A DNA stretch of 64,000 nucleotides, taken from positions 1-64,000 of the forward strand of contig BPQB01000086.1 of the NCBI GenBank assembly GCA_019973155.2, read 5' to 3'. This document shows positions 3,758 through 63,025 of the stretch, one piece after another; the first letter of the stretch is position 1; each line of letters starts with the position of its first letter. The notes under the pieces were generated by a model that was not told the DNA's origin, did not search any database, and saw only the letters and a program-made list of their open reading frames with translations. This stretch comes from Phanerochaete sordida. Taxonomy: Eukaryota > Basidiomycota > Agaricomycetes > Polyporales > Phanerochaetaceae. A program made the position numbers and the translations under genes.

Positions 3758-5427
3758 ATGTCAGACGACATCACGGAGCTCGAACAGGCGTAAGCTCGCC
3801 TCTTCCTTCGTCTCCTACCCGTTCTGACAAAGCCGCTATGCAGCATGATGTACAACTACGTCTCTCTTGCAGCACTCTGTTAGCTTAAGAGCGCTCGTAC
3901 ACATGTTCATATGCTGATTCCTGTATCACAGGCCTTGTCTCTTACGAATACGTCGTCACCATCGATCAGGAAGTACGCTGCGTTTGGGTGCGTAAGCCGT
4001 CTGCAACCACCTTTCTCCTCGTCTCGACGCGCTGGGTCATGTTGCTCAACCAACTTGCCAATTGGATACCATACGTGCCAACCTGTGAGTACTCGGACCG
4101 TGTCTTCGTGCGCTAAGCTCATACTAGTTGAATCCAGCGGCCGCAAGCTGCAAAGCGATTGACGCGGCAATATCCACCTTATATTTCATCGCCATCCTGC
4201 AAGTAGCCCGTAAGTTCGCGCCACTCCAACGTAGCCAATCTGACTGAAACGCCCTTTGTACAGTCTTCTCGAGCGTTCGCATTTACGCGCTATGGCAGGA
4301 CACGCGCTTTGCGTGGGTCTACCTATCTTTCATCTTTGTTCTTAGCTGCGTCCCGATAGCGACAAACATTGTGAGTGCCAGGGCGATCCTTGCCGCTGGA
4401 TGGCATAACTGATTGTCGAACAGTTCATGTTGTCGCGCACGTCTGTGGTTTTTGAAGGCCCGCCGATCTCGCAGTGCATCCTCCCTGTCAACGTTTCGGA
4501 CCATCTCAGCTCTGCGTACGTACTCTTTCAGATACTTCCACGGGCGAGCTAACACCTTGTTTTGATCCATCTAGACGTGAGGCCGGTTTATCTCTGTATC
4601 TTGGCCGAGGAACTGAACCACGGTTTGCAGTCGAATACTTCACAAGAAGCTGCGCACTCGCGGCAGATGTGGCCGTCCTCATCCTGACCTGGGTCAAGAC
4701 ATTCCGACACTGGCGACAACTTCGCGAGCTGAACATTGGGACGTCCGTGGCCAGCTTGCTTCTCCGTGATGGTGCGCCACAGGTCCCTGCGACAGGGGTC
4801 GTCGCTGATTAGCTTTTAGGAACGCTGTATTTCCTGTGAGCTCAGGACGTCGAACGCAATCTTCTCCGTTTATCTGATTTAACTGTCTGCAGCGCACTCG
4901 CCGCGATCAACATAGCGCAGATGCTCTCGCTCGGCTCGAGCTCTTCCAGTGGTTCGGTAAGCACCTCGCTTGATGAGCGAGCCTATCTTGAACTCCTCTA
5001 TAGTGGAGCGACTCCGCAGTCGTATTCCTCCAGGCCCTGGTACGTCGTTCATGCTCCCTCTCAAATACACCCGTTTCTCTGACACCAAGTCTAGCCGTCG
5101 ATTCTTACCCAGCGCTTCATGCTCAATCTTCGCCGATTCAGCAGCCCTGAGCACGACACAGACGTAGGGGCACCGCGGCTCTCGCGGTTTTCCGTCAACT
5201 TCAGAGTGCCGACCGAGTTCTTGGGCGATATCGGCGAGCCGTTGGACGATGACCAGAGCAGGCGCGCCGACGTTCGCTCCGAGGCTAGCTGCATCCAAGG
5301 CGAGCAATCTAAAGCTGCACACGCTGGATCCGACGGTGGCGGTTGTTCCACATCGAAGACCGACGAGGCTGTGCCTGCCGAATTGGCGAACCCGCCTAGC
5401 GATACAAATGCCAATGAGTGCTGTTGA
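3758..5427 (+). CDS. DUF6533 seven-pass membrane protein M1
   Basis: Exons: 3758-3789, 3844-3878, 3932-4084, 4138-4209, 4264-4370, 4424-4515, 4575-4576, 4631-4771, 4820-4835, 4893-4956, 5004-5039, 5095-5427 (360 aa). Exon 3 has the DUF6533 signature (SYEYVVTIDQEVRCVW, then a TM with RWVMLLNQL). Further hydrophobic segments fall in exons 4-5, 5, 8, 10 and 11, giving about seven TM helices. The landmarks TRSC, LLLRDG, GTLYFL and TQRFMLNLRRF precede a hydrophilic C-terminal tail of about 110 residues that should be cytoplasmic. Exon 7 is only 2 nt (AC): joining 4515 directly to 4631 breaks the frame, and including it gives Ala-Leu. A TATA-like box at 3668-3677 lies about 85 bp upstream. This is the first gene of a seven-gene tandem array. 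The family's function is unknown; the topology is receptor-like but no ligand is known. Confidence 0.8.
4575..4576 (+). other. Two-nucleotide exon of M1 (representative of nine)
   Basis: Flanked by introns 4516-4574 (GTACGT...CTAG, branch GCTAAC) and 4577-4630 (GTGAGG...GCAG, branch ACTGAAC). Its equivalents are 9346-9347, 12433-12434, 14697-14698, 18924-18925, 21915-21916 and 24780-24781 on the plus strand, and 55555-55556 and 62120-62121 on the minus strand. Confidence 0.75.
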
Positions 5428-8464: not shown

Positions 8465-10293
8465 ATGTCTCAGCCGGACGACAGCCTGGCGCAGGAGCTC
8501 TACGACATGTACGCGTCATTTTCTTTGAATGTGCTACTCTTTCGTCGCTGACGCTGACGCTTCGTATCCAGTCTCACGGGAAACTATGTCAACTGTGCGA
8601 TGATGTGTAAGCCTCACTGTTCTAGAATCGTCAAAAAGCTCCGCTCACGACCTGCCTCTAGGCCTGGTCGTGTACGAGTTTGTCATCACGTTCGACCAGG
8701 AAATCGCAGTCGGCTGGAGGAGGAAGTTCACTGCTACCTCGCTGCTGCTGCTGAGCACGCGGTGGCTCATGGTCCTAGGGCCAATCGTGACCTTCGTGCC
8801 CGTCGGCCCGACCGGGTGTAAGTTTCTCGATCCTACCTTCATGGCCCGTACTCACCTCGGCTCTCCTTCTAGACGTCGCTATCTCTATGCGTGATACGTC
8901 ATCAGAGAAGCTGAGCATGGCCCCGCAGATGCACGAAGATTTACGCGTTTATCGAGCTAACATTCATGGGAGCTGTTGCTGTCGTTTCGAGTAAGCACCA
9001 TTGTTGGTGATGCTCCAGGGACTCAACGACAGTTCTCCTACAGTATTCTCGGCCCTTCGAGTCTACGCGCTCTGGCAAGGATCACGAGCGCGGTGGCCTT
9101 TCGCTTTCACAGTCCTCCTGCTCGGGCTAGTCCCAGTGTGGACCAACATTGTGAGTGCACAACGCCCAGTCGCAGAGCCCAGGCCTGACGTCCTTTTAGT
9201 ACGGCTGGACACGGACCTCCGTTGAGTATGCTGAGCTGCCCATACTCTCCACCTGCGCCACATGGACCACAGTCCCGACTGGTCTCAACAATGCGTACGT
9301 GCTAATGCAATTACCTCTCCCGCTGCTCGCTCATTCCTTCCTTAGACGTACGTTCCGTGGTTACATCCCTCTGCCATTGTCTTACCGCTCGCGTCAATCC
9401 TAGTGCTCTATCTGACCAGAAGCTGCGCCATTGCTTCGGACGTGGTCGTCCTCGTGCTGACGTGGGCCAAGTCGCTGAATCAATTCCGCGAAATGCGCCA
9501 GCTCAAGCTCGGCTCGTCCGTCTCAGCTGTTCTGCTGCGAGATGGTGCGTTTCCTGCGAAGCTTTCACGTCGACGGCAGGGCTGACGCATCGTATAGGCA
9601 CGGTGTATTTCCTGTGAGTAAGCGTTAGCGAAGACCCTCGAGCGAGTCGCTCACTTTTGAGTTCGCAGAGCCCTGCTTGTGCTGAACATCCTGCAACTCG
9701 TAACGTACTCGACCGGTCTTGCAGGCGTAAGTCATCTTCCAATTCTGCACATCATGTGCTGACATCTCTTCGCCAGGGCGCCGCATACGCAATCGTGTTC
9801 CTGCAATCGTTGGTAAGCTCCGCGCGCTCCGTCGTGCAGCACACGGTCGCTGACTACGCTGCCCGCTCCGCAGCCTCCCCTGCTTGTGCAGCGCTTCATG
9901 CTGAACCTGCGCCAGCTTGGCCAGCCCGGCGGCGACGCGACGTCCGCTGCAGAGCACTTCTCGCGCTTCTCCGTCAACTTCCGCGTGCCGTCCGACTTCC
10001 TCGGAAACATCGGCGAGCCGCTCGACCACAGCAATTGGCGCTCGGAGCCCACGCTGCGCACGGACAGCGACGATACGCGCTGGGCGGACGGGTCGCAGCT
10101 CGGTTTCGACGAGTTGCCTGGCGAGCACAGCCCTGCGTCCGAGCGCTGGGAGGACCCGGGCGGGTCGAGCACCGGCAGTCCGACGATCAAGCCTGCCGAG
10201 CCATCTGTATCTGGGATACAGGTACGTCCCGGACCTTCTGTCGCTCACTGCGAGAGCTGATTCGACGCGTATGCACTGCAGGCGCAAGTTTGA
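8465..10293 (+). CDS. DUF6533 seven-pass membrane protein M2
   Basis: Exons: 8465-8508, 8572-8606, 8662-8817, 8873-8888, 8929-8990, 9044-9150, 9200-9294, 9346-9347, 9404-9544, 9598-9613, 9669-9726, 9777-9812, 9874-10221, 10282-10293 (375 aa). The DUF6533 signature is VVYEFVITFDQEIAVGWRR in exon 3. Landmarks are SALRVYALWQG, YLTRSCAIASD, AVLLRDGTVYFL and PPLLVQRFMLNLRQL. The tail holds FSRFSVNFRVPSDFLGNIGE, a block shared with M1, M6, M8 and M9. The 2 nt exon AC (9346-9347) restores the frame and gives Ala-Leu. The fourth exon is the weak point: the only arrangement found that keeps frame uses a GC donor at 8889 and a 40 nt intron, so a local frameshift cannot be excluded. TATATA lies about 56 bp upstream of the ATG. 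This is the best-preserved representative for family comparison. Confidence 0.75.
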
Positions 10294-11522: not shown

Positions 11523-13395
11523 ATGTCGGCGGCGGGCGAGGTCTCGTCCAGCGAGAAGGCGCTGATGATTGTGTAAGTCATCCATTCGCGGTTCGAATAA
11601 CGTTGACGCATTGACTATATTCAGCGCAAACGAGGGTTACGTGTCATACGCGTTGCTCGGTATGCATGCTATACTATCCGTCTTGTCGGACGCTAACGAC
11701 AGGCGGTTCATTTCCTGCAGCGCTCGTTATCTATGAGCTCGCCGTGACCTTCGACCAGGAGGTGGCGCTCGTATGGAGCAGACGCTTCACCGCGACTTCG
11801 TTCCTGCTGCTGAGCACACGATGGACCACGCTGCTGATCGCAGCAATCCAGGCCTGGAATGCTGGACCACACTTGTGTCAGCCCAATCCATGTTGTCGTT
11901 ACGACCTGTGTGCAGGCTCGCGCTGACCGCCGGTTAATAGGCGTACTAGCATTCCGTTCGTGCGCCCTGAATTTTGATGGATAGCCGGTACTTTGCAGCT
12001 GCGAACTGAGCGAAGATCTGGTCATAGTCATGTACATGATCAGCTGTCTCTGGATGACCGGTAAACAGGCCAGTCGTCCCTTTCCGCCATCTAGTGACCA
12101 GCTTCCTTCGCAGGCTTCACATCCTTACGTCTCTACGCGCTCCTCCACGCATCTAAGGCTCGTTCTTCACTGGCGCTCGTCGTCGCAACGCTTGGATTAA
12201 TTCCGGTCGCTACAAATGCAGTGAGCCGTACATTTACGACCGCAGTTCAGAGCTGCTGTGCAGCTGATGCAGGTCCTCAGTTCCTTCTGGCAGAATCGAC
12301 GTGCCAGGGAGGTGGCAGTGTATTTCGTCGCACTTGCACGCGTTCCACGGATATCCCTAACAAGACATACGTAATGTCAGTACGATCTTTGCTTGACTTT
12401 CGTGTCACCCGCGTGCTGATTCACTGTATTAGTCGTACGTGGATGCAGTCCGCTACGCGGGACTGAACCCGTAGTGATACTGACCAACCTAAAGTGTTGC
12501 TACTTACGCGATGCAGCGTGCTCGCGGTAGATCTCATCGCCATCGCTATAACGTGGAAAAAATCGTTCGGACACTTTCGAGACATGCGGAGGCTGAGATT
12601 TGGCGGCGTAGCGAAGGTCTTGATAAGAGATGGTCAGTATCAGTAGCATACCTTTCTCGCATATTATTCCTCCCTCGCTCATTGCTATACTGTCCAGGCA
12701 CCATGTGTTTCCTGTGAGAGACCTCACGCTGTGCCACATAGGACTTTCTCATACATATGCTTTCAGAACGGTCCTGCTGTCGAACACCCTTCAGGTCCTG
12801 GTAGACCTTCAATGTGTGAATCTTGGGGCAAGTATATCTGTGCGCAGGATCACGTCCCTTCGTCTTACGCTGCCCTGTAGGTGCCCTATCTAACTCCTGT
12901 GCTGCAATGCCTGGTGCGGAGGTCATCACTATTTCTGACCCTCACAACGCTAATCGCTCGCTCTCCGTTTAGCCTCTGCTGCTGGTACAGCGCTTCATGC
13001 TTAATCTTCGCCGGCTAAATCATGGAAGTCCGAATGACACTCAGTCGCACCTCCGCTACCCCTCACAAATTCATCATACCTTCAAACCGTCTCCAGAATT
13101 CTTGGATAACATCGGAGAGCCGCTCGACGCTCCATTCGCATGGTCGCTCGATTCCGTTAACGAAGACGACATCGTTGCTGACATCTCGCCGGAGGAATGC
13201 GAGTTAGCGGCTGTTCGATGTCGTCAGGACCCTATGGACACGTTAAGTGCGCATCGGCACTTTGCATGGACCTACAGTAAAGCTGATTACCCGCGTCAGG
13301 CTAAGATCTTTCGTCGATACGCTTTACACCGGTGCATGCCAGACAATTCATCATCCAGCCAGATAGATAGTCAGTCACAGCGAGTGTCGTTCTGA
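11523..13395 (+). CDS. DUF6533 seven-pass membrane protein M3
   Basis: Exons: 11523-11572, 11625-11659, 11721-11876, 11941-11959, 11999-12060, 12114-12220, 12281-12375, 12433-12434, 12475-12493, 12517-12632, 12698-12713, 12767-12827, 12881-12913, 12973-13395 (397 aa). Signature VIYELAVTFDQEVALVWSRR; landmarks RLYALLHAS, LIRDG, PLLLVQRFMLNLRRL. The 2 nt exon is TC (12433-12434). Intron 12828-12880 has a GC donor (GCAAGT). Two points are uncertain. A 23 nt GT...AG stretch (12494-12516) must be removed to match the paralogs residue for residue (LTNLNVLAVD against LTRSCAIASD in M2). Alternatively one long intron 12376-12516 also keeps frame but loses that helix start. The tail is the longest in the array and diverges from the others (its FSRF block is not recognisable), so the gene could be in early decay. 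Confidence 0.6.
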
Positions 13396-13763: not shown

Positions 13764-15451
13764 ATGCCGCAGTCCGACGAGACCTTTACGCCCGCAGAGA
13801 TGTCGCAGGACATCGAAAATATGTATGGTCTTGCAGCATTCCTCCCCAGGACTGGGGTACACTCATGGCTATCCAGGATTACTAATTCTTACATTTCGAC
13901 GTCGCTACTCTGTAGGTGACTAAATTACTTGTTACACCGGGTTCGCTGACAACCACGACGCGGCAGCTCTAGTCATATATGAACTTGCCATAACGCTCGA
14001 CCAGGAAGTATCGCTCGTCTGGAGACGAAGAATTACTGCGACCTCGCTCCTGCTAATCAGTACCCGATGGACCATGCTGCTGGCCTTGCTTGCAAATTTC
14101 GGAGATATCGTTTTCACCGTGTGTATGTTTGTTTTCGTGTGCTTCAACGCTCTTCATATAACGTTTGCTGACTCGGCTGTTCAGACGTGATCACCCCACG
14201 GTATAAGTGAGGACGTACTTGATAGCACGCTGACAAATTCCCGAACATCATAGGACCACGGGTGCCCTCCAGTGCACACCATTTCTCTCTGTGCCAAACG
14301 GGTTGCTATATATTATGGGTATGGCTCAGGGAACAGGTGAGCAGGTCTGCTATCTGCGGAACGAGCTGCCTAAGCTCTGGGCAGCATTTTCCTGCTTGCG
14401 CGTGTACGCGCTGCTCCAACAGTCAAAGCAGAGAAATGTCATCGTCGCCCTCGTTGCCTCGCTTGGCTGCGTGCCAATTGCAACGAACGCCGTGCGCATT
14501 GTTCTCGCGAGGGACAAAGCTCAGATCTGACACCCTTGATCGACAAGTTCACCCTGATAGCGTCAAGGTCTCAAATTGAAAACTTCGCACGCTTCAGTGC
14601 TTGCATGACGTCTCCAGGTGTATCAAAGCAGACCAATGACATGTATGTATCAGCGATGGAGTCTATCAACGAATATTCGCTGACTTTGTCTGTCAGCTGT
14701 ACGTGAATTGCGTTCATCGGCGGTCTCTCACTACGCTTACTCAATATATTCAGTGCTCTTTGTGACAAAGACGAGCGTGATCGCGAGCGATGTCATAGCA
14801 CTCTCAGTGACGTGGGCTAAATCATTACACCAGTCCCGGGAGATGCATAGCTTAAGGCTAGCTGGGGTGGCAATCGTACTTCTGCGAGACGGTAAGCACC
14901 TAGCTGCTACTTGTCTCGTTACATAATACTAGGCAATTTTACCACCTTTCAGGGACTATCAACTTCCTGTGAGCTCGTGCTACACACCGGCAGGAGGAGG
15001 CCGCCTGATGACCCACGCTTTAAAGAGTCCTCTTGTGCGTAAATTTGCTCCAAATCCTAACCCTTGTCTGGGCTGCGGACTCTGCGGTGAGTACTGGGTT
15101 TCGAGACTCAGAGAAAGATGCTTGAAAGATGTATGCAGGCGTCATACGCTTCACCTGTGCTACAACTTCTGGTGATGGCCTTGCACCTCGTCTTAAATAC
15201 GGTATGAATACTCACCACATTGTATCTCTTCCCCGTAGCCCTCGTTGTTTGTGCAACGATTCATGCTTCACCTTCGTCAGGCCTCCCACGCCAGCACGGA
15301 GGTCAGTCAACCGACGCTGCGCTGCTCGCAATTCTCTTTAGAGCTCGGCAGCATCGGGGAGGTGCTGCATGATACTACACAGCATTATTGGACTGGCGAG
15401 GAGTATGAGGGCGAAGATGAAGGAGCTACGAGCAATTCAGATACATCATGA
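13764..15451 (+). CDS. DUF6533 seven-pass membrane protein M4
   Basis: Exons: 13764-13822, 13877-13911, 13967-14122, 14185-14200, 14254-14336, 14385-14491, 14548-14642, 14697-14698, 14754-14891, 14953-14968, 15026-15086, 15139-15171, 15239-15451 (337 aa). Signature VIYELAITLDQEVSLVWRRR; landmarks CLRVYALLQQ, FVTKTSVIASD, IVLLRDG, PSLFVQRFMLHLRQ. The 2 nt exon is CT (14697-14698), giving Ile-Leu. The fourth exon (14185-14200) could instead end at 14206, also in frame. Two acceptors are AAG rather than CAG/TAG. The tail is short and acidic (EEYEGEDEG). TATATA at 13719-13724 lies 40 bp upstream of the chosen ATG; a second in-frame ATG at 13800 is possible. Confidence 0.7.
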
Positions 15452-18088: not shown

Positions 18089-19696
18089 ATGTCGAATTCG
18101 ACCGCTGGTATCCTGGAAGCCTACCAGGTCGCGTGAGTCGCGCAGTCGAGCCGTTGTTCTGCTGTCGAGAAGCTGATTGCTCCCCAAGTCAGACGTACGA
18201 CTACACCTCCGTCGCGCTTCTATGTACGCCGAGCCGCTACGCAACGCTTGTACCGCCACTGACAGTGCCCTCCTGCCTCAGCCCTGGTAGCCTACGAGTT
18301 CATCACCACCGTCGACCAAGAGGTTGCCTGCGTCTGGACACGACGGCCATCGGCGACGTCGGTCCTCCTCGTCACCACACGCTGGGTCATGGTGCTTTAC
18401 CAGGCCCTCCAGTGGATCCCCTACCACACCTACTGTGCGTACACACCCTTGTCTTGATCTCCGGCGTGGACTCAACTCTCGCGCGACGACAGCGGCGTGC
18501 TGGGCGCTGGAAGTGACCGACTTTACGCTATACCTCGTATCGCTGGCACAAATGGCTGGTGAGCCTTCACGCCGCTTGTCCGAACCCCAAACCTGCTCAC
18601 CCCCGTTCGCTCAGTATTCTCCAGCCTCCGGGTCTACGCCCTCTGGAGCAGGTCCCAGCTCAGATACCTATTCGCAGTCGCGGTCCTCGCCCTGAGTTGC
18701 GTCCCCATCGCCACCAACATCGTACGTCTGGAAGCCTCCGGGGATACATGCACTTGCTGAGGTGGGCTTGACAGTTCCAATTGTCGCGCATATATGCGGT
18801 GTGGTCAGGCCCGCCAATCGACACCTGCAACATCGTCTCCAATATTTCGAACCATCTGAATCGATCGTATGTACATCGCGCCTGACGTTCTTCGTTACTA
18901 TGACGCCGAGTTTCTGCCCCCAGGAGTGCGTCGCATTCACAGTTCTCCGGGTTGCTCCTCATTGACGGCTGCCTGGTTCCACAGTGCTTCTGCTGACCCG
19001 CAGCTGCGCGCTGTCCGCGGACGTGCTCGTCCTGGTGCTGACCTGGATCGAGACGTTCCACCACTGGCGGCAGCTGCGCCAGCTCAACATGGGCGCGTCG
19101 GTGTCGGGGCTGCTCCTACGTGATGGCACTCTTTACTTCCTGTGAGTCCGCCGTTCCACAGACGCTGGAGTCACAGTGCTTATGGATTCGCAGGGCGTTC
19201 TTGGCGACAAACATCGCTCAGATTGTCACGTATCCGCATAACATCCAGTCTGTCGAGAGCTCGGTGCGTACGATGCCAGCAGTTGTCCATTCCGTCGTCG
19301 TCCTGAACGATACTTGCAGTGGGCGCGCTGGAACACCTACTCAGCCGGGATTCTCCAGGCTCTGGTAAGCTCCGCGCCATCCTCCTCGCTGATGGCACGC
19401 TGACTGCGAGTCCGGCACAGCCATCAATTCTGGTGCAGCGCTTCATGCTCAACCTCCGCCGCTTCAACGAGCCCGAGCGCAGCGCGGAAACTCCGAGTCT
19501 TCCTCGGCTGTCGCAGTTCTCCGTGGTCTTCAGGATGCCGTCCGACACGCTCGGCGAGATCGGCGGACCGCTGGACCACGGAGTATCCGCGTACACGGAC
19601 GATGATACGGTGCCAGACAAAAGCGACACGCACGGGGCCCCTGACGAACGCAGCGAGGCTGTGGAAGCCGCAAGCCCGCACAGCGAGAAGGCTTAG
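18089..19696 (+). CDS. DUF6533 seven-pass membrane protein M5
   Basis: Exons: 18089-18132, 18189-18223, 18282-18434, 18493-18558, 18615-18721, 18775-18866, 18924-18925, 18985-19141, 19194-19263, 19320-19364, 19421-19696 (348 aa). Signature VAYEFITTVDQEVACVWTRR; landmarks SLRVYALWSRS, LLTRSCALSADVLVLVLTW, LLLRDGTLYFL, PSILVQRFMLNLRRF. It pairs with M1: both read PSIL before VQRF/TQRF, both share the extracellular pattern LSR...GPPI..C, and neither has the extra intron in exon 4. The intron that separates RDG from GTLYFL in the other copies is absent here (exon 18985-19141). The 2 nt exon is GA (18924-18925), giving Ser-Met. TATAAT at 18021-18026. Confidence 0.8.
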
Positions 19697-21034: not shown

Positions 21035-22894
21035 ATGTCGCAGACAACGGAGGTCTTGCAGCAGGAGCTCAGGGACAAGTACGTGTCCGTTGTTCCCGAT
21101 GTATCCATGTCACCGCCTGCTAACGCTGCACTTTATCGTCAGTCTAATAGTGAGCTACGAGGAATACTCACTTCTTTGTGCGCAAGCCTTCGTCTGACCC
21201 CGAAGGTCGAGGATTCTGACTGGCCATTTCCCAACTAGGTCTCGTGGTTTATGAGTTCATCGTCACCCTCGACGAAGAGCTCACCGTTGTATGGCGAAGG
21301 AGACCCACAGCCACATCGATGTTGCTGCTAATCATGCGCTGGATTATGCTCCTCGGTCCCATCGTTCAGACCGTTCCCGCCAGGCCGACGTGGTGTAAGT
21401 GCCCGAATCAGCATTCCGAGTCCATGACTAACACGAGCGACTGCTAGACGTTCGGTGCTATACCGGCGCGTTTCGACTCCGTAACCAATGGCTTCTCCCG
21501 CAGGTGCAGATCACAATACGCATGGAACATCGCCGTATTTTTGGTGACCACAGCGGTAATCGCATGTGAGCCCACCGACCCTCCGAACGCGCTCGAATTC
21601 ATCCTCCGCGCAGTGTTCTCCGCACTTCGTGTATACGCACTCTGGCAAGGGTCCAGGCTGAGACATCTCCTCGCGGGCATCGTTTTTGTCTTTGGGGCGG
21701 TGCCCGTTGCGACGAATATCGTAAGTCACACGTCCGAAGTCGTCTTACACTATACGCTGACGACGTGGTAGTTTGCTGCAACCCATGCCTCCGGCTTCTC
21801 GTACGACCCGGTGTTCTCTGCCTGTGAAGTACGGATCAATGTGTCCCCCGAACTCAACGCGAAGTGCGTGCTGTTGGGAGTAGTTTGACCGCCGATGCTG
21901 ACTTTGCTTCACAGACGTAGGTGCCTGCGCTTTCGACCCGACGAGACGGACGTCTGACCCCGCCTTGACTGCAGTACTCTTCGTCACAAGAGGCAGCGCA
22001 ATCCTGTCAGACGTTCTTGCTCTCGTACTGACGTGGATCAAGTCCTACTCGCAGTTCAAGGAAATGCGACGTCTGGGTCTCGGTTCATCTGTCTCAACCG
22101 TGCTGCTGAGAGATGGTATGCTTCCGACGTTCGCCTACCTACGTCGTGTCACTTACGGTTCACTATTCTAGGGACCCTTTATTTTCTGTAGGCTACAGAT
22201 CGCCTTTTCATGTGACGACGTACCGACGTACCGCCCTAGCGCCCTTCTGGCCATCAACATCCTGCAGCTTATGACATTCTTCGACACCTTCTCCCAGGTA
22301 GGTTTCGTTGGATTGCGACCTGCGGCGCGTTGCTGACTCTATCATCCAGGGTGCATATGCTGTCGACTTCCTCCAGTCACTGGCGAGTATCTTGAGCGTC
22401 AGCAGCAGATGCGCTCGCTGACCAGCTGTCGTGCGCAGCCCCCTCTACTGGTGCAGCGCTTCATGCTAAACCTTCGACAGCTCGACCGCACGGCGAGCGA
22501 GAACAATTCGGACGCAGACCATTTCTCCCGCTTCTCCATCAGCTTCCGAGTACCCTCTGATTTTCTTGGGAATATCGGACAGCCGCTCGAACATAGTCAC
22601 TTGTCTGACGGCCTTGACGAGGATATCCCTCACCAGGGCCAGGAACTATCTCTTCCGTGGTCATTCTGCGAAGAGACATGCTCCTACCTCCACCCGAAGG
22701 ACGACACCGGCCGAACGGCGGTCGATCTCGTGCCAGCATCGCCAACTAATCAAAGTGCCCGTGGTTCCGCGTATGGAGGCGGTTTCCCGGTGCGCATACC
22801 GGAGGACCAGGAGCAAGAGATAATCGCCACAGCGAAGCCTGGATCTGAGTGGTACGTGTGGCTTCTCTTTCGCAGACCTGGGCAAAGTGGCTGA
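21035..22894 (+). CDS. DUF6533 seven-pass membrane protein M6
   Basis: Exons: 21035-21078, 21143-21177, 21239-21394, 21448-21454, 21504-21565, 21614-21720, 21772-21863, 21915-21916, 21975-22115, 22172-22187, 22240-22297, 22350-22382, 22439-22894 (402 aa). Signature VVYEFIVTLDEELTVVWRRR; landmarks SALRVYALWQGS, FVTRGSAILSDVLALVLTW, VLLRDGTLYFL, PPLLVQRFMLNLRQL, then FSRFSISFRVPSDFLGNIGQ. The 2 nt exon is AC (21915-21916), giving Lys-Leu. A second very short exon of 7 nt (21448-21454) is inferred in the fourth position; its donor GTGCTA is weak. Intron 22383-22438 starts with GC (GCGAGT). This copy has the longest protein. The palindromic TATA element is 63 bp upstream. Confidence 0.75.
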
Positions 22895-23888: not shown

Positions 23889-25547
23889 ATGGTCCATGAC
23901 GACGAACATCTTGCCCGGGCTCTCTACAGGATGTGAGTACTTGAATCTCTTGTTTCCCCCTACCCCATCGTTTTCCGAGCTCAAGCCCTTTATCTTATAG
24001 CTTAACCGGGAGTTACGTGGCATGCTCTTTAATTTGTGCGTCGGAAGGAACTTACGCCGTGTCGGCGCGAGCACTAAAACGACCTGTGCATATCAGGTCT
24101 TGTCAGCTACGAATACCTCATAACGTTTCGCCGGGAAGTGAGCGTAGTATGGCAGAGGAAGCTTACCGTCACCTCGCTGCTCTTGCTCAGCGTTCGCTGG
24201 CTTATGATTTTCAACACGGCTGTGGCCTGTTTTCGGATGGAACCGTCGCTGTGTAAGTCTTATTCCTGTTCGTTTTACGTCTAGCTATACTCAGTTCCAC
24301 CTCCACTCTCTCAGGAGTATTTTTCCTCATAATTGTGACGGTTCCTCAAGTCGGAACGGTTTGCTTCTAGGTGCCAGTCCCTCTATACAATGCAATTGCT
24401 AGCGTACACTGTCACGACGATCTTGATTTCCTGTGAGTTTATCTACACATCGCTCCGCTCAAAGCTAATTCAGGTGTAGCCTTCTCTGCGCTCCGTGTCT
24501 ACGCGCTCTGGCAAGCATCAAAGGCAAAGCATGCGCTTGCTGCCATCGTCCTTGTGCTGGGGCTGACTCCCATTGCACCGACCCTGGTAAGTCGGCAAGG
24601 TCGAGGTCATCCTGCTTTGCTGACCTGTAACAAGCTCGATTGGCTGCAAATGCTACACGAATGGGACTACAAATTCTTACCAATACTCGCATACTGCAAT
24701 CATTTCCGCATCCCTCGGGCCCTTGGGCAGCAGTACGTGATGTTAACATTCGCGAGAATCATGACTAAATCTGGCGCAGATGTACGTCCTACGTTCCCTG
24801 TACTGTCCGTGCAACCTGACCGCAAGCAGTGCGCATCTTGACGAGATGCAGTACGATATTCTCAGATTTTATCGTGATCGTGTGCACCTGGATCGTCTCG
24901 TTCAGACACTATCTGGCAGTCAGGAAGCACAGCCTTGGGATATCAATAACGGAGATATTGCTTCGAGATGGTCTGTCCACGTACCTGCTCAGAAAAGCGT
25001 GGTCTGACTTTGTTCTTCCCAGGCACGATATATTTTTTGTGCGTACAAGGCATGAGATGGAGATATTGACGTGCCACTGAGCTCCGAGTATCCAGTGCAT
25101 TACTTGTAGTCAACAGTCTCATGCTCTATACATTAGGGAAAGTAGGCCCGTTCGAGGTACGTGCCCATGCGCCGGAGTATTCTCCGTCCAGGGCTGCTAA
25201 CTGTTGGGTTGCGTTCACGATAGGGAGCCTATGCTGTCAACCTCGTGCACTCCTTGGTGCGTATTCATGGCTCCACTCAACAGGTAGACACTGATCAGGA
25301 CCACCTCTCGCAGCCGCCGCTCCTGGTGCAACGCTGCATGCTGAACCTACGACAATTTACTGAAGCGGGAGCTGACTTCGACTCCGAAAATGCCGTGTCA
25401 AGCTTTCGCATAGGAAACATAGGGCAGCCACTAGATTACAACGAGGAGGAAAGGTTGGACGACGACGACGGCGACGGCTACATTGAGGGTCTACCATGGA
25501 CAATCAGGGAAGCGGGGGAGAACACCTCTGTCGATATGGGCAGATAG
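23889..25547 (+). CDS. DUF6533 seven-pass membrane protein M7
   Basis: Exons: 23889-23932, 24001-24035, 24097-24252, 24295-24316, 24371-24432, 24480-24586, 24635-24732, 24780-24781, 24830-24970, 25023-25038, 25096-25156, 25224-25256, 25314-25547 (336 aa). Signature VSYEYLITFRREVSVVWQRK; landmarks SALRVYALWQAS, RILTRCSTIFSDFIVIV, ILLRDGTIYF, PPLLVQRCMLNLRQF. The 2 nt exon is AT (24780-24781), giving Gln-Leu. The fourth exon (24295-24316) was chosen because it is the only in-frame option without a stop. The tail lacks most of the FSRF block and is rich in Asp (LDDDDGDG). The gene ends 268 bp from, and converges on, the allantoinase pseudogene. The same tail-to-tail pairing recurs for M8 at 54.4-54.8 kb. 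Confidence 0.75.
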
Positions 25548-54810: not shown

Positions 54811-56449
54811 TCAGACAAGCGGTGGATTACCGAGACGACTGAAGCCTTCGGGCTGGTCGTGCTCGACAGGCTCTTCGGCACCATCGCGTATGAGGTCGGA
54901 GGGGATGGCCAGCTCGACAGAGAACCGAGAGAAGTGCTGGGCATCGGAGTTGTCTTCCACGATTGGGCTGGTGACCTGCCGGAGGCTCAGGATGAAACGT
55001 TGGATGAGCAGCGGGGGCTGTTCGCAGTCCAATGTGGTGGGTCAATCGCGAGTGGATAGAAATTGAGAATATGGTCGTACCATGAGCTCGAGTATCGTTA
55101 CACTGTAGACCTCCTGCAGGTGCACAGTGAGGGCTGTGTATAGTAATAGGTTGTGCATTACGTACCGCCTCGGTCGGGTAGGATACAAGCTGCAGGACAT
55201 GAACGCAGAGCAATGCGCTGCCAACATCGGTGTCAGCAAGCACCACGGGGAATATCTCAAGCTCTGTCCGCACATGAAGTGTAATGTCCCTGATGAACAG
55301 CGATTTTAGTCTCGGGTCGTATGTGTAAGACTCGGATCACGCGGAAGATGCTCACCATCCCGGAGCAGCACAGTGGATATAGACGAGCCTTGGGCGTTGA
55401 ATCGTCGCATTTCTCGGAAGTGCTTGAACGATGTGATCCATGTCAATATGAGTACGATGAGGTCGGATATTATGGCAAACATCCTTCCAAAAGTCTCAAC
55501 TACGAGGACGAGTTCGAGTCGCGCCGCGGTCTGAGATGGAGTCGATCAACGTACCGCTGTCAGCGTGTAACAAATGCTTAGTGTACGATTCAAGAATGAG
55601 GCTCATCTGTTACATACCCAACGATCAGTCTTCCCGAGTCGAAAAAGCCGGAGCAATTATTGGGCGACTCGAATACGACGTGCGTTTGTGTCAACACGAG
55701 CTGGCGGGAGTCAGTGCTCGTCTGCCAGGGAGAGAGCGGGGAAGCTCACGATGTCTGAAGCGGCAGGACCCATCCCAAGGAATAAAACGATGGCTATGAT
55801 GAGCCATTTTGTTCTCTGTCTCGTCCATATCATGTAGATTCTGGCGGCGGAAAAGACTGGCCACGGTGTCAGTGGCCGATATAGCTGAGTGCGATGGGCG
55901 AATGTGGCGTGCTTACGTGGTATGAGGAACGTGTTCGCAACAAGTATCAAGTAGTTCGTCATATACATGCGGTTACATCTGCGTATATCCGGCCGATGTT
56001 GGAGTAGGAATAGCGCTAGAAAACATTGGACGTCTGAAGAGGTAGACATTACATCTCATGGTGACCGTGAATGTCAGATAAAAACCAACTTACACGCTGA
56101 TTGCGAATGTACCTGAACATATGGCAAAATCTGCCCTAGGACCATAAGCCACCGCATCCCGAGACAGAGCAGAGATGGCGCCGCAAGCTTCCGCTTCCAG
56201 ATAACTGCGACTTCTTGATCAAATGTAGTGATATACTCATATATCGCGAGAGCTGAAGTAAAGGCATGTAAGCACCAAGACATCGGGAATTCGCTGCACC
56301 ACACACTTGATACTGAGCTTTGCGCATAATATGCGACTAGGCTGGCGTGAGACTAGAGTCAGAGAACATATACGTTGAGAAGATTATGACACGTCGCACA
56401 TTGTACGGCCTGTCCTCGTAAGTGTGCTCCATGTGTCCGAGCCCGTCAT
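54811..56449 (-). CDS. DUF6533 seven-pass membrane protein M8
   Basis: Exons: 56449-56400, 56341-56307, 56252-56094, 56033-55917, 55856-55750, 55700-55618, 55556-55555, 55499-55356, 55289-55274, 55217-55166, 55113-55081, 55017-54811 (334 aa). Signature AIYEYITTFDQEVAVIWKRK; landmarks AARIYMIWTRQ, SDLIVLILTW, TVLLRDGTLHF, PPLLIQRFILSLRQV, FSRFSVELAIPSDLI. The 2 nt exon reads CG on the coding strand (55556-55555), giving Gly-Val, the one Val among nine copies. Exon 4 is taken as continuous, as in M1 and M5, because no in-frame intron fits. A TATAAA (56513-56508) lies about 60 bp upstream of the ATG. It is convergent with the intact allantoinase. Several family residues are altered (TRSC is replaced by FGRM), so it is more diverged than the left-hand copies. 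Confidence 0.75.
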
Positions 56450-61357: not shown

Positions 61358-63025
61358 TTATGCCGAAGTGTTATCCTCGGTCACTTCATACCCTAAGTCG
61401 CCACCTTCGTTATTCGCGTCGGGGATGCCGTGATCCAGAGGCTCTCCGATGTTCCCGATGAGGGTAGAGGGAGCTCTAAAGCTCAGGCTGAAGCGAGACG
61501 AATGCTGCGCGTTGACTGCACTCTCTTCGTTGACTTTGTCAAGCTGACGAAGATTCAACATAAAGCGCTGCACCAGCAATGGTGGCTGCATCGGACGATA
61601 TTCTCAGCGACGAATAACGCCGGTTGAGTAGAAAATCTGTACCATTGCCTGCACGAAGGCGTCCACGTCAGATGCCTGTGGAAATTAATTAACATCTCGT
61701 AGAGTGGAGTATGACAGCCACCCACATTTGGGAACCCACTAGAAAAAGTCACAATTTGTAGCACGTTAACGACCAGAAGAGTGCTATCGAGAGGCCCATC
61801 AAGTTCGAGAGCTGCAGTTATTCAGGGACGCTTACATGAAATAGAGTGTCCCTATGGCAATCCCCAAGTCAAATGGTCAGTTTCGAAGGATGGGCAAATA
61901 CATGATAGCTCCCTACGTACCATCTCGGAGCAGCACTGTTGCGATTGAGCCACCGAGGCCCAGTCTTCGTACATCGCGGAATTGCCGAAAAGACTTGATC
62001 CACGTCAACACCAGCAGAAGGACATCTGACGCCAAGATGCTTCCCCGAGTAAGGAATAACACTGTAGTGATCATTCTGATCTTCAATCGCAGAGAATGTA
62101 TCGATAAATGTAGGCCTACACCTAACGACATTGGTCAGCAATGAGAGAATGGGGGATTACGAACTTCAGAAGACTGCCTGGGACGTACTCATTGTCAAGC
62201 CTTGGGGAGATCTCCATGATGGAGTTGCAAACAGAAGATGATGGCGTAAATTGAACTTGCATCGTGATAGTGCGAGTCCATCCGAACTATAACCTCAGGT
62301 TAGCGTACAAATCAACCTTTCGCAAGTTGATACGCGACCCACAATATTTGTGCCAATCGGGATGCCGGCTCCAAGTATCACTATCGACAGCGCAGAAGCA
62401 TATCCCACAAGGGAACCTCTCCACAGTGCGTACACACGCAAAGAGGCCATGACTTAACATTTTAGCTGAAGACTAAGGTGCCAATGAAGAAATCGACCCA
62501 CGCGATACCAGTACCACTATGCCCATGTACATTAGTGTACCAAGGGCATGAAATGAGGAGCACCTTGTACAAGTCGCAGAAGCATTATTGCACTGCACGC
62601 AATTGGCTGAGCATTTTTGGCACGTCTGCCGGGAGCGGGAGCTGTGAGATGTTGAGGACCGAAGAGAAAACAAGTACACATACACCAGGAGCCATTTTGC
62701 GGGGTAAGTGACAATATTTGGTCGAGAACCATGAGCCAGCGTGTACAGAGTATCAGGAGAGAGGTGACAGTAAACCTCTTCTTCCATACTACTGCGACCT
62801 CTTGGTCCAGAGTAATCAGATACTCGTAGAATATCAGACCTAAAGTGCCAAGTCAAGTGTGATAATCGGCGAAGGAGTCTGGACATACATGAAGTTGCGC
62901 ATGCGATGTAACTCTGATCCAAGCTGTATGGTTATTGATATCAGCACTCAACAGCGTAAACTTGCTGCGTGTGGCAGCGCTTACATTGCTTGGAACAGCT
63001 GGGCAAACGTTCCATCTTCGGCCAT
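61358..63025 (-). CDS. DUF6533 seven-pass membrane protein M9
   Basis: Exons: 63025-62985, 62923-62889, 62839-62684, 62641-62599, 62563-62502, 62452-62343, 62286-62189, 62121-62120, 62061-61921, 61851-61836, 61783-61726, 61675-61643, 61585-61358 (340 aa). Signature IFYEYLITLDQEVAVVWKKR; landmarks ASLRVYALWRGS, FGWTRT, LFLTRGSILASDVLLLVLTW, TVLLRDGTLYF, PPLLVQRFMLNLRQL, SRFSLSFRAPSTLIGNIGEP. The 2 nt exon reads GT on the coding strand (62121-62120), giving Glu-Leu. The fourth exon (62641-62599) is the least certain part and its intron is only 35 nt. A TAAATAA box about 75 bp upstream of the ATG. It is closest to M2 and M6 by its landmarks, although on the other strand 40 kb away. Confidence 0.75.

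Follow-up and report, generated by a model that had tools for sequence, protein, structure and literature searches.

A predicted two-nucleotide coding exon recurring across the DUF6533 seven-helix genes of Phanerochaete sordida

Exons of one or two bases have been known as rare single cases. In plants, APC11 and VPS55 contain 1-nucleotide (nt) exons (PMC4674806, PMC8831610); for APC11, intron definition with stepwise intron removal has been proposed in a paper that also cites potato invertase, in which the second intron leaves first (PMC4674806). Among fungi, a 1-nt exon with RNA support has been reported for Fusarium CYP621A, and because exons of 2-5 bp from Arabidopsis, Drosophila and humans are mentioned in the same report (PMC12940212, 2026), a 2-nt size alone is not unprecedented. 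P450 genes of Phanerochaete chrysosporium hold microexons and frequent introns of 45-55 bp, the shortest exon being 6 bp (PMC1184071), and the fungal gene bioDA carries a [D2,3] stwintron (nested intron) for which intron definition has been reported (PMC5639578). Here we analyse a 2-nt exon found in DUF6533 (PF20151) genes of the wood-decay fungus Phanerochaete sordida within the first 64,000 bases (the window) of contig BPQB01000086.1 (C86; 134,983 bases), part of a genome assembly of 40.8 Mb. DUF6533 is a basidiomycete-specific seven-helix family with receptor-like genes, one member of which, SNB1, is required for mushroom development (PMC10949477).

The window holds nine family copies, M1 to M9, which were re-found by tblastn and then read base by base. 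All nine share one layout at the junction between the second extracellular loop (ECL2) and the fifth transmembrane helix (TM5), namely an upstream exon, an intron, an acceptor AG, two bases, a donor, an intron, an acceptor and the TM5 exon. The original prediction, made from the letters of the window, had proposed nine 2-nt exons with flanking introns, and each lies where it was placed, with a donor and an acceptor on both sides in nine of nine. In M1, on the forward strand, intron 1 (4516-4574, GTACGT...TAG) and intron 2 (4577-4630, GTGAGG...CAG) enclose the exon AC (4575-4576), which completes the codons GC|A for Ala and C|TC for Leu. The other forward-strand exons are AC in M2 (9346-9347, introns 9295-9345 and 9348-9403), whose residues AL equal those of the relative P0002, TC in M3 (12433-12434, introns 12376-12432 and 12435-12494), CT in M4 (14697-14698, introns 14643-14696 and 14699-14753), GA in M5 (18924-18925, introns 18867-18923 and 18926-18984), AC in M6 (21915-21916, introns 21864-21914 and 21917-21974) and AT in M7 (24780-24781, introns 24733-24779 and 24782-24829). 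M8 and M9 lie on the reverse strand, with CG at 55555-55556 (introns 55617-55557 and 55554-55500) and GT at 62120-62121 (introns 62188-62122 and 62119-62062), respectively. Base reading reproduced all nine predicted dinucleotides. Of the predicted intron range of 40-67 nt, the upper end stood while the lower did not, the measured range in the window being 47-67 nt.

The same anatomy was then followed through the genome. At least 150 PF20151 matches exceeded the curated Pfam cut-off (150 scored out of 203 candidates), seven of them inside the window; M1 and M5, recovered with M1 exon queries, brought the set to 152 copies. The matches are often clustered, on contigs C2, C58, C86 and C104 among the matches listed. 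A stretch 430-930 nt downstream of the start of the DUF6533 match was examined in every copy, and a profile from 48 copies, most of them within the 152, recognised a TM5 exon in 121 at E<0.01. An acceptor-NN-donor arrangement precedes this exon in 120 of the 121, the remaining copy having an 8-nt exon. The donor is of the usual kind in 117 copies, with the pattern 40-95 nt upstream, and is GTCNGT in three more; two of the 120 copies with a 2-nt exon have a GC donor. With only AGs of the appropriate phase considered, 118 of the 121 copies have one lying exactly two bases ahead of the first codon in the TM5 profile. An upstream donor could be assigned in 119 of the 120 copies, and in 105 of these a strong donor follows the acceptor by 2 nt, each other spacing from 0 to 12 accounting for 0-5 copies; in the first 48 copies the count at 2 nt was 45. 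Base shuffles of the same stretches gave the acceptor-NN-donor pattern in 2.7% of cases against 120/121 in the real ones. The 2-nt pattern exceeds chance. Two L058 copies carry the GC donors GCAGGT and GCAAGT exactly 2 nt past the acceptor, right after a 2-nt exon AC. As a general splice motif of this genome, YAGNNGTACGT was rejected, since it occurs 869 times genome-wide, with no enrichment over the reversed pattern (951).

Both flanking introns are complete, as indicated by the donors and acceptors of all nine window copies and by enrichment of the branch motif CTRAY, present in 65 first and 54 second introns of 119 (about 15 and 14 in base shuffles). Their median lengths are 54 and 54 nt, and all three length classes modulo 3 are represented. 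Between them, 14 of the 16 possible dinucleotides occur, most often AT (29 copies), AA (17), CT (15), AC (14) and GA (13), with the others at 8 or fewer. The length of the microexon is conserved and its sequence is nearly free. A G ahead of GT is usually favoured at donors; the second microexon base is G in just 3 of 120 copies.

Evidence closer to the message came from relatives. Protein-collection searches returned 37, 86 and 16 relatives, of which 24 lack genome annotation (sources lgn, jgi and ena). Twenty of these cover the junction (P0110, P0113, P0119 and P0120 do not). In these 20 the frame stays open for 228-399 residues on a contig of about 1.2-3.3 kb, and all of them run across the junction with loop lengths that differ by a few residues. 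Since the three DUF6533 genes modelled here hold 11 or 12 intervening sequences each, such frames on such short contigs suggest that these proteins derive from spliced RNA, and they are called transcript-like below.

The reading frame was assessed with the upstream half of a profile of the transcript-like proteins together with the best-scoring donor, the microexon itself not being used. By this measure 108 of 120 copies have an upstream exon with two bases left over, with no base left in six and one base in another six; where the phase was decided by at least 3 bits (100 copies), 95 leave two. The TM5 exon downstream needs one base. A direct join would thus shift the frame, and two bases are wanted. 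Splice choice, scored with a profile of the 20 transcript-like proteins only, agreed with this need. Inclusion of the 2 nt was the best choice in 108 of 120 copies when one donor was allowed for each; with the best of four donors its score exceeded those of skipping, of retention and of exons of 1 or 3 nt in 112 of 119 copies, in 93 of them by more than 5 bits. When the model was chosen freely among single introns, long introns, double introns with an exon of 1-12 nt and stwintrons, the 2-nt exon was best in 104 of 120, changing to 106 with a smaller and 89 with a larger penalty.

Alignment of relatives across the junction bore out the prediction further, with no gaps within five residues in any of 14 gene/relative pairs. 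In the four closest pairs (76-89% identity) seven of eight microexon codons agree, codon 2 in 4/4 and codon 1 in 3/4: AL in both M2 and P0002, IM in both C34_224958 and P0056, IL in both C35_206102 and P0058, and RL versus ML in C56_191110 and P0001. The Ile-Met of P0056 is what the microexon AA of its closest gene predicts. When all 14 pairs are taken, with identities as low as 37%, agreement is 10/14 for codon 2 and 5/13 for codon 1. The original prediction had also taken the hydrophobic character of codon 2 as a sign of purifying selection on the 2-nt exon. We reject this argument; as 105 of 119 copies have T as the first base of the next exon, codon 2 reads NTN there, and is hydrophobic, whatever the microexon holds.

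With the anatomy, the frame requirement, the conservation and the presence of both codons in transcript-like relatives demonstrated, a genuine 2-nt coding exon is the family-wide reading best supported by the phase test, the splice-choice scores and the relatives. On these sequence grounds, almost every DUF6533 seven-helix gene of this genome in which a TM5 exon can be recognised very probably has, at the ECL2/TM5 junction, a constitutive coding exon of 2 nt flanked by ordinary short U2 introns. The exon would complete one codon with its first base and open the next with its second, so the reading frame would hold its length while its sequence stays nearly free. Intron definition would govern the recognition of the two introns, which would leave in succession; sequential removal is likely because two spliceosomes would hardly fit together on an acceptor and a donor only two bases apart.

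Several observations weigh against this conclusion. The spliced-RNA origin of the lgn and jgi proteins is itself deduced, and message-level evidence comes from relatives only; the annotated P. carnosa proteins P0039, P0041, P0057 and P0075 are colinear at the junction at the protein level only. Another choice was favoured in 7 of 119 copies in the four-donor test, by more than 5 bits in L044 and L083, and L071 lacks a scorable upstream donor there. The one-donor test favoured another choice in 12 of 120, the worst being L040 (-16.9 bits) and L106 (-11.0 bits), both of which were reversed in the four-donor version. Within the window, the four-donor scores for M8 (52.6 versus 53.7 bits) were too close to favour either choice. 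Free choice returned another model in 16 of 120 copies (eight single introns, six long introns, one 11-nt exon and one stwintron). The 31 copies that lack a TM5 match belong to diverged groups and were classed by inspection: five, comprising four copies of the C8 cluster and L053, have an 8-nt exon (8 being 2 modulo 3), in L052 only one intron is present and the corresponding bases are fused to TM5, 13 copies of the C54, C126, C173 and C33 groups have no intron pair, and 12 were left unassigned. Inspection was the basis for the 8-nt reading because diverged copies score near zero in the model scan. The 8-nt exons stand where other copies have 2 nt and are seen in the diverged copies L026, L027 and L053 (e.g., TGCGAACC and AGGTCGCA).

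A further difficulty is that one of the two introns might be retained and code for a variable stretch of the loop. Given an upstream exon that leaves two bases, open in-frame retention of one or both introns is possible in 24 of 119 copies. M1 is one such case, as its intron 2 is open and in frame and is kept in the public model P0050; P0047 and P0048 keep intron 1. In the other 95 of 119 copies, however, every retention shifts the frame or meets a stop, given the upstream frame found in 108 of 120. Both introns also have a donor, a branch-like motif and an acceptor, with lengths in all classes modulo 3, and the extra residues that retention would add at the junction are absent from the transcript-like relatives. 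Retention is therefore a very improbable account of the junction.

Equally improbable in our view is one long intron that uses displaced or non-canonical splice sites, as drawn in several annotated models. Seventeen annotated P. sordida proteins were returned, 11 of them mappable to a modelled copy, and the 2-nt junction is used by none of the 11, as expected from the earlier claim that automated annotation would miss it. Some of their departures can be written as one intron: later acceptors would account for P0122, P0044, P0025 and P0073, and a GC donor 2 nt further downstream for P0062, which has a different residue at the junction. Yet each model needs a different ad hoc site, and most lose conserved TM5 residues, a part of TM5 being missing from P0044, P0025 and P0073. 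P0038, the model for M2, is a frame-shifted skip product across the 80 residues compared, out of frame from the junction onward. P0122 matches a model built here at 99%; it deviates at both 2-nt sites (the second is described below) and therefore loses a conserved Cys. The upstream exon is absent altogether from P0059 and P0065. Genome-wide, long-intron models win in 6 of 120 copies. Public models of the DUF6533 family are thus often wrong at TM5.

The alternative in which both bases are removed, within a stwintron, is very improbable too at ECL2/TM5. A [D2,3] stwintron does leave an identical AG-NN-GT signature and is also predicted in these genes where TM2 meets TM3, and for one copy, L083 (C75_27768), it is the best-scoring model at the ECL2 site. 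Such an arrangement needs GT before the internal intron, however, and GT closes the upstream exon in just 2 of 119 copies, L083 among them; removal of both bases would also break the frame, and the residues encoded there are retained in the closest relatives. Under free model choice the stwintron was best in 1 of 120. The view of the original prediction that a stwintron does not fit this site is thereby upheld, L083 excepted. Frameshifting or editing after exon skipping was set aside, because the uninterrupted frames of the relatives make neither necessary.

A 2-nt exon remains our preferred reading of the ECL2/TM5 junction, and the same genes point to a second site at the junction of TM2 and TM3, in the first extracellular loop. 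In 67 copies for which longer sequence was taken, an acceptor-to-strong-donor spacing of 2 nt peaks twice, at 600-799 nt (45, the ECL2/TM5 site) and at 200-299 nt (31, the TM2/TM3 site) downstream of the start of the DUF6533 match, other spacings reaching at most 9 per bin. The TM2/TM3 region of these 67 copies was scored with ordinary intron lengths and stwintron models, a second intron costing 12 bits, the single penalty tried. This gave 19 2-nt exons, six [D2,3] stwintrons, four other double introns and 38 single introns, and it supersedes an earlier scan with single introns of up to 180 nt, which had given 46 single introns, 17 2-nt exons and 4 others. The 19 2-nt calls lead by 0.5-10.6 bits, and because 13 of them lead by less than 5 bits, single cases are not secure. 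L031, L022 and L047 are among the copies with such a predicted exon. The exon TG of L031 predicts ESWC, which its nearest relative, P0001, has, and in L022, examined by hand, an exon AG restores SCKPD, which is missing from its annotation.

The [D2,3] stwintron was best in M2, M4, M6, M7, M8 and L051 with margins of 5.8-13.7 bits. These have GT before the inner intron, a strong rebuilt donor (GTACGT, GTGAGT or GTATGT) and a preserved frame. Including M9, which was recognised by reading, six of the nine window copies carry such a predicted element, five of them by model. On the forward strand, the element of M2 spans 8816-8928 and consists of GT, an internal intron (gtaagt...tag, 8818-8872) and ACGT, so that GTACGT is rebuilt, and its product PTGC equals that of P0002. 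The stwintron of M4 (14119-14253) can be read in two registers, from 14119 or 14121, the first of which gives a Cys codon after the junction. That of M6 (21393-21503) has its internal intron at 21395-21447 and rebuilds GTACGT, and that of M7 (24251-24370) has it at 24253-24314 and rebuilds GTGAGT. On the reverse strand, M8 has a stwintron at 55979-56095 with the internal intron at 56093-56034 and GTACGT rebuilt, and M9 one at 62564-62685, which the automatic model took for a single intron; its product GSWCSSFH equals that of the annotated P0044.

AG-NN-GT is common to 2-nt exons and stwintrons; the mark that distinguishes them is a GT immediately ahead of the first donor. In 15 of the 19 2-nt calls and 5 of the 6 stwintron calls, and in 2 of the 38 single-intron calls, a Cys codon follows the first base of the downstream exon. 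We tentatively suggest, at somewhat less than even confidence, that 'intron, AG-NN-GT, intron' could be one evolving element with two outcomes: a GT before the first donor would make it a [D2,3] stwintron, and otherwise it would yield a 2-nt exon. Both outcomes would occur at one junction in one family of a single fungus, with the downstream intron fixed one base before the conserved Cys codon, and the two, ultrashort exons and nested introns, may be neighbouring, interconvertible states.

How far the DUF6533 exons go beyond described cases can be judged from the literature searched. The phrase '2-nt exon' was not found there, while exons of 2-5 bp have been mentioned in print under other wording; in the literature on microexons and stwintrons in fungi or basidiomycetes, no title or beginning of an abstract among the matches listed presents a DUF6533 case. 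We do not claim the first report of a 2-nt exon. New, as far as this literature shows, are the family-wide scale, a length that is fixed while the sequence is nearly free, the second site, and the occurrence of both modes at a single junction. With about 120 paralogs and a second site alternating with stwintrons, the family amounts to a set of natural replicates in which the splicing of introns two bases apart, their order of removal and the origin of such exons can be studied. The plant exons of APC11 and VPS55, as described in the cited reports, resemble those of DUF6533 in being ultrashort, frame-fixing, flanked by two introns and missed by annotation; they differ in belonging to plants, in measuring 1 nt and in occurring once per gene in few-copy genes, whereas the DUF6533 exon is 2 nt long and recurs in about 120 paralogs within a single fungal genome, with a second site in some copies. 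According to its report, CYP621A shares with DUF6533 a fungal host, a frame-fixing role, an argument from phase and short introns, the RNA support being that of CYP621A alone; it is a 1-nt exon of Ascomycota traced through orthologs across species, in contrast to a family of paralogs. The P. chrysosporium P450 genes are from the same genus and likewise combine microexons with small introns, with a reported minimum of 6 bp there versus 2 nt here. In bioDA, as reported, both introns vanish from the message, whereas two bases are predicted to stay at ECL2/TM5 and the TM2/TM3 paralogs to display both modes.
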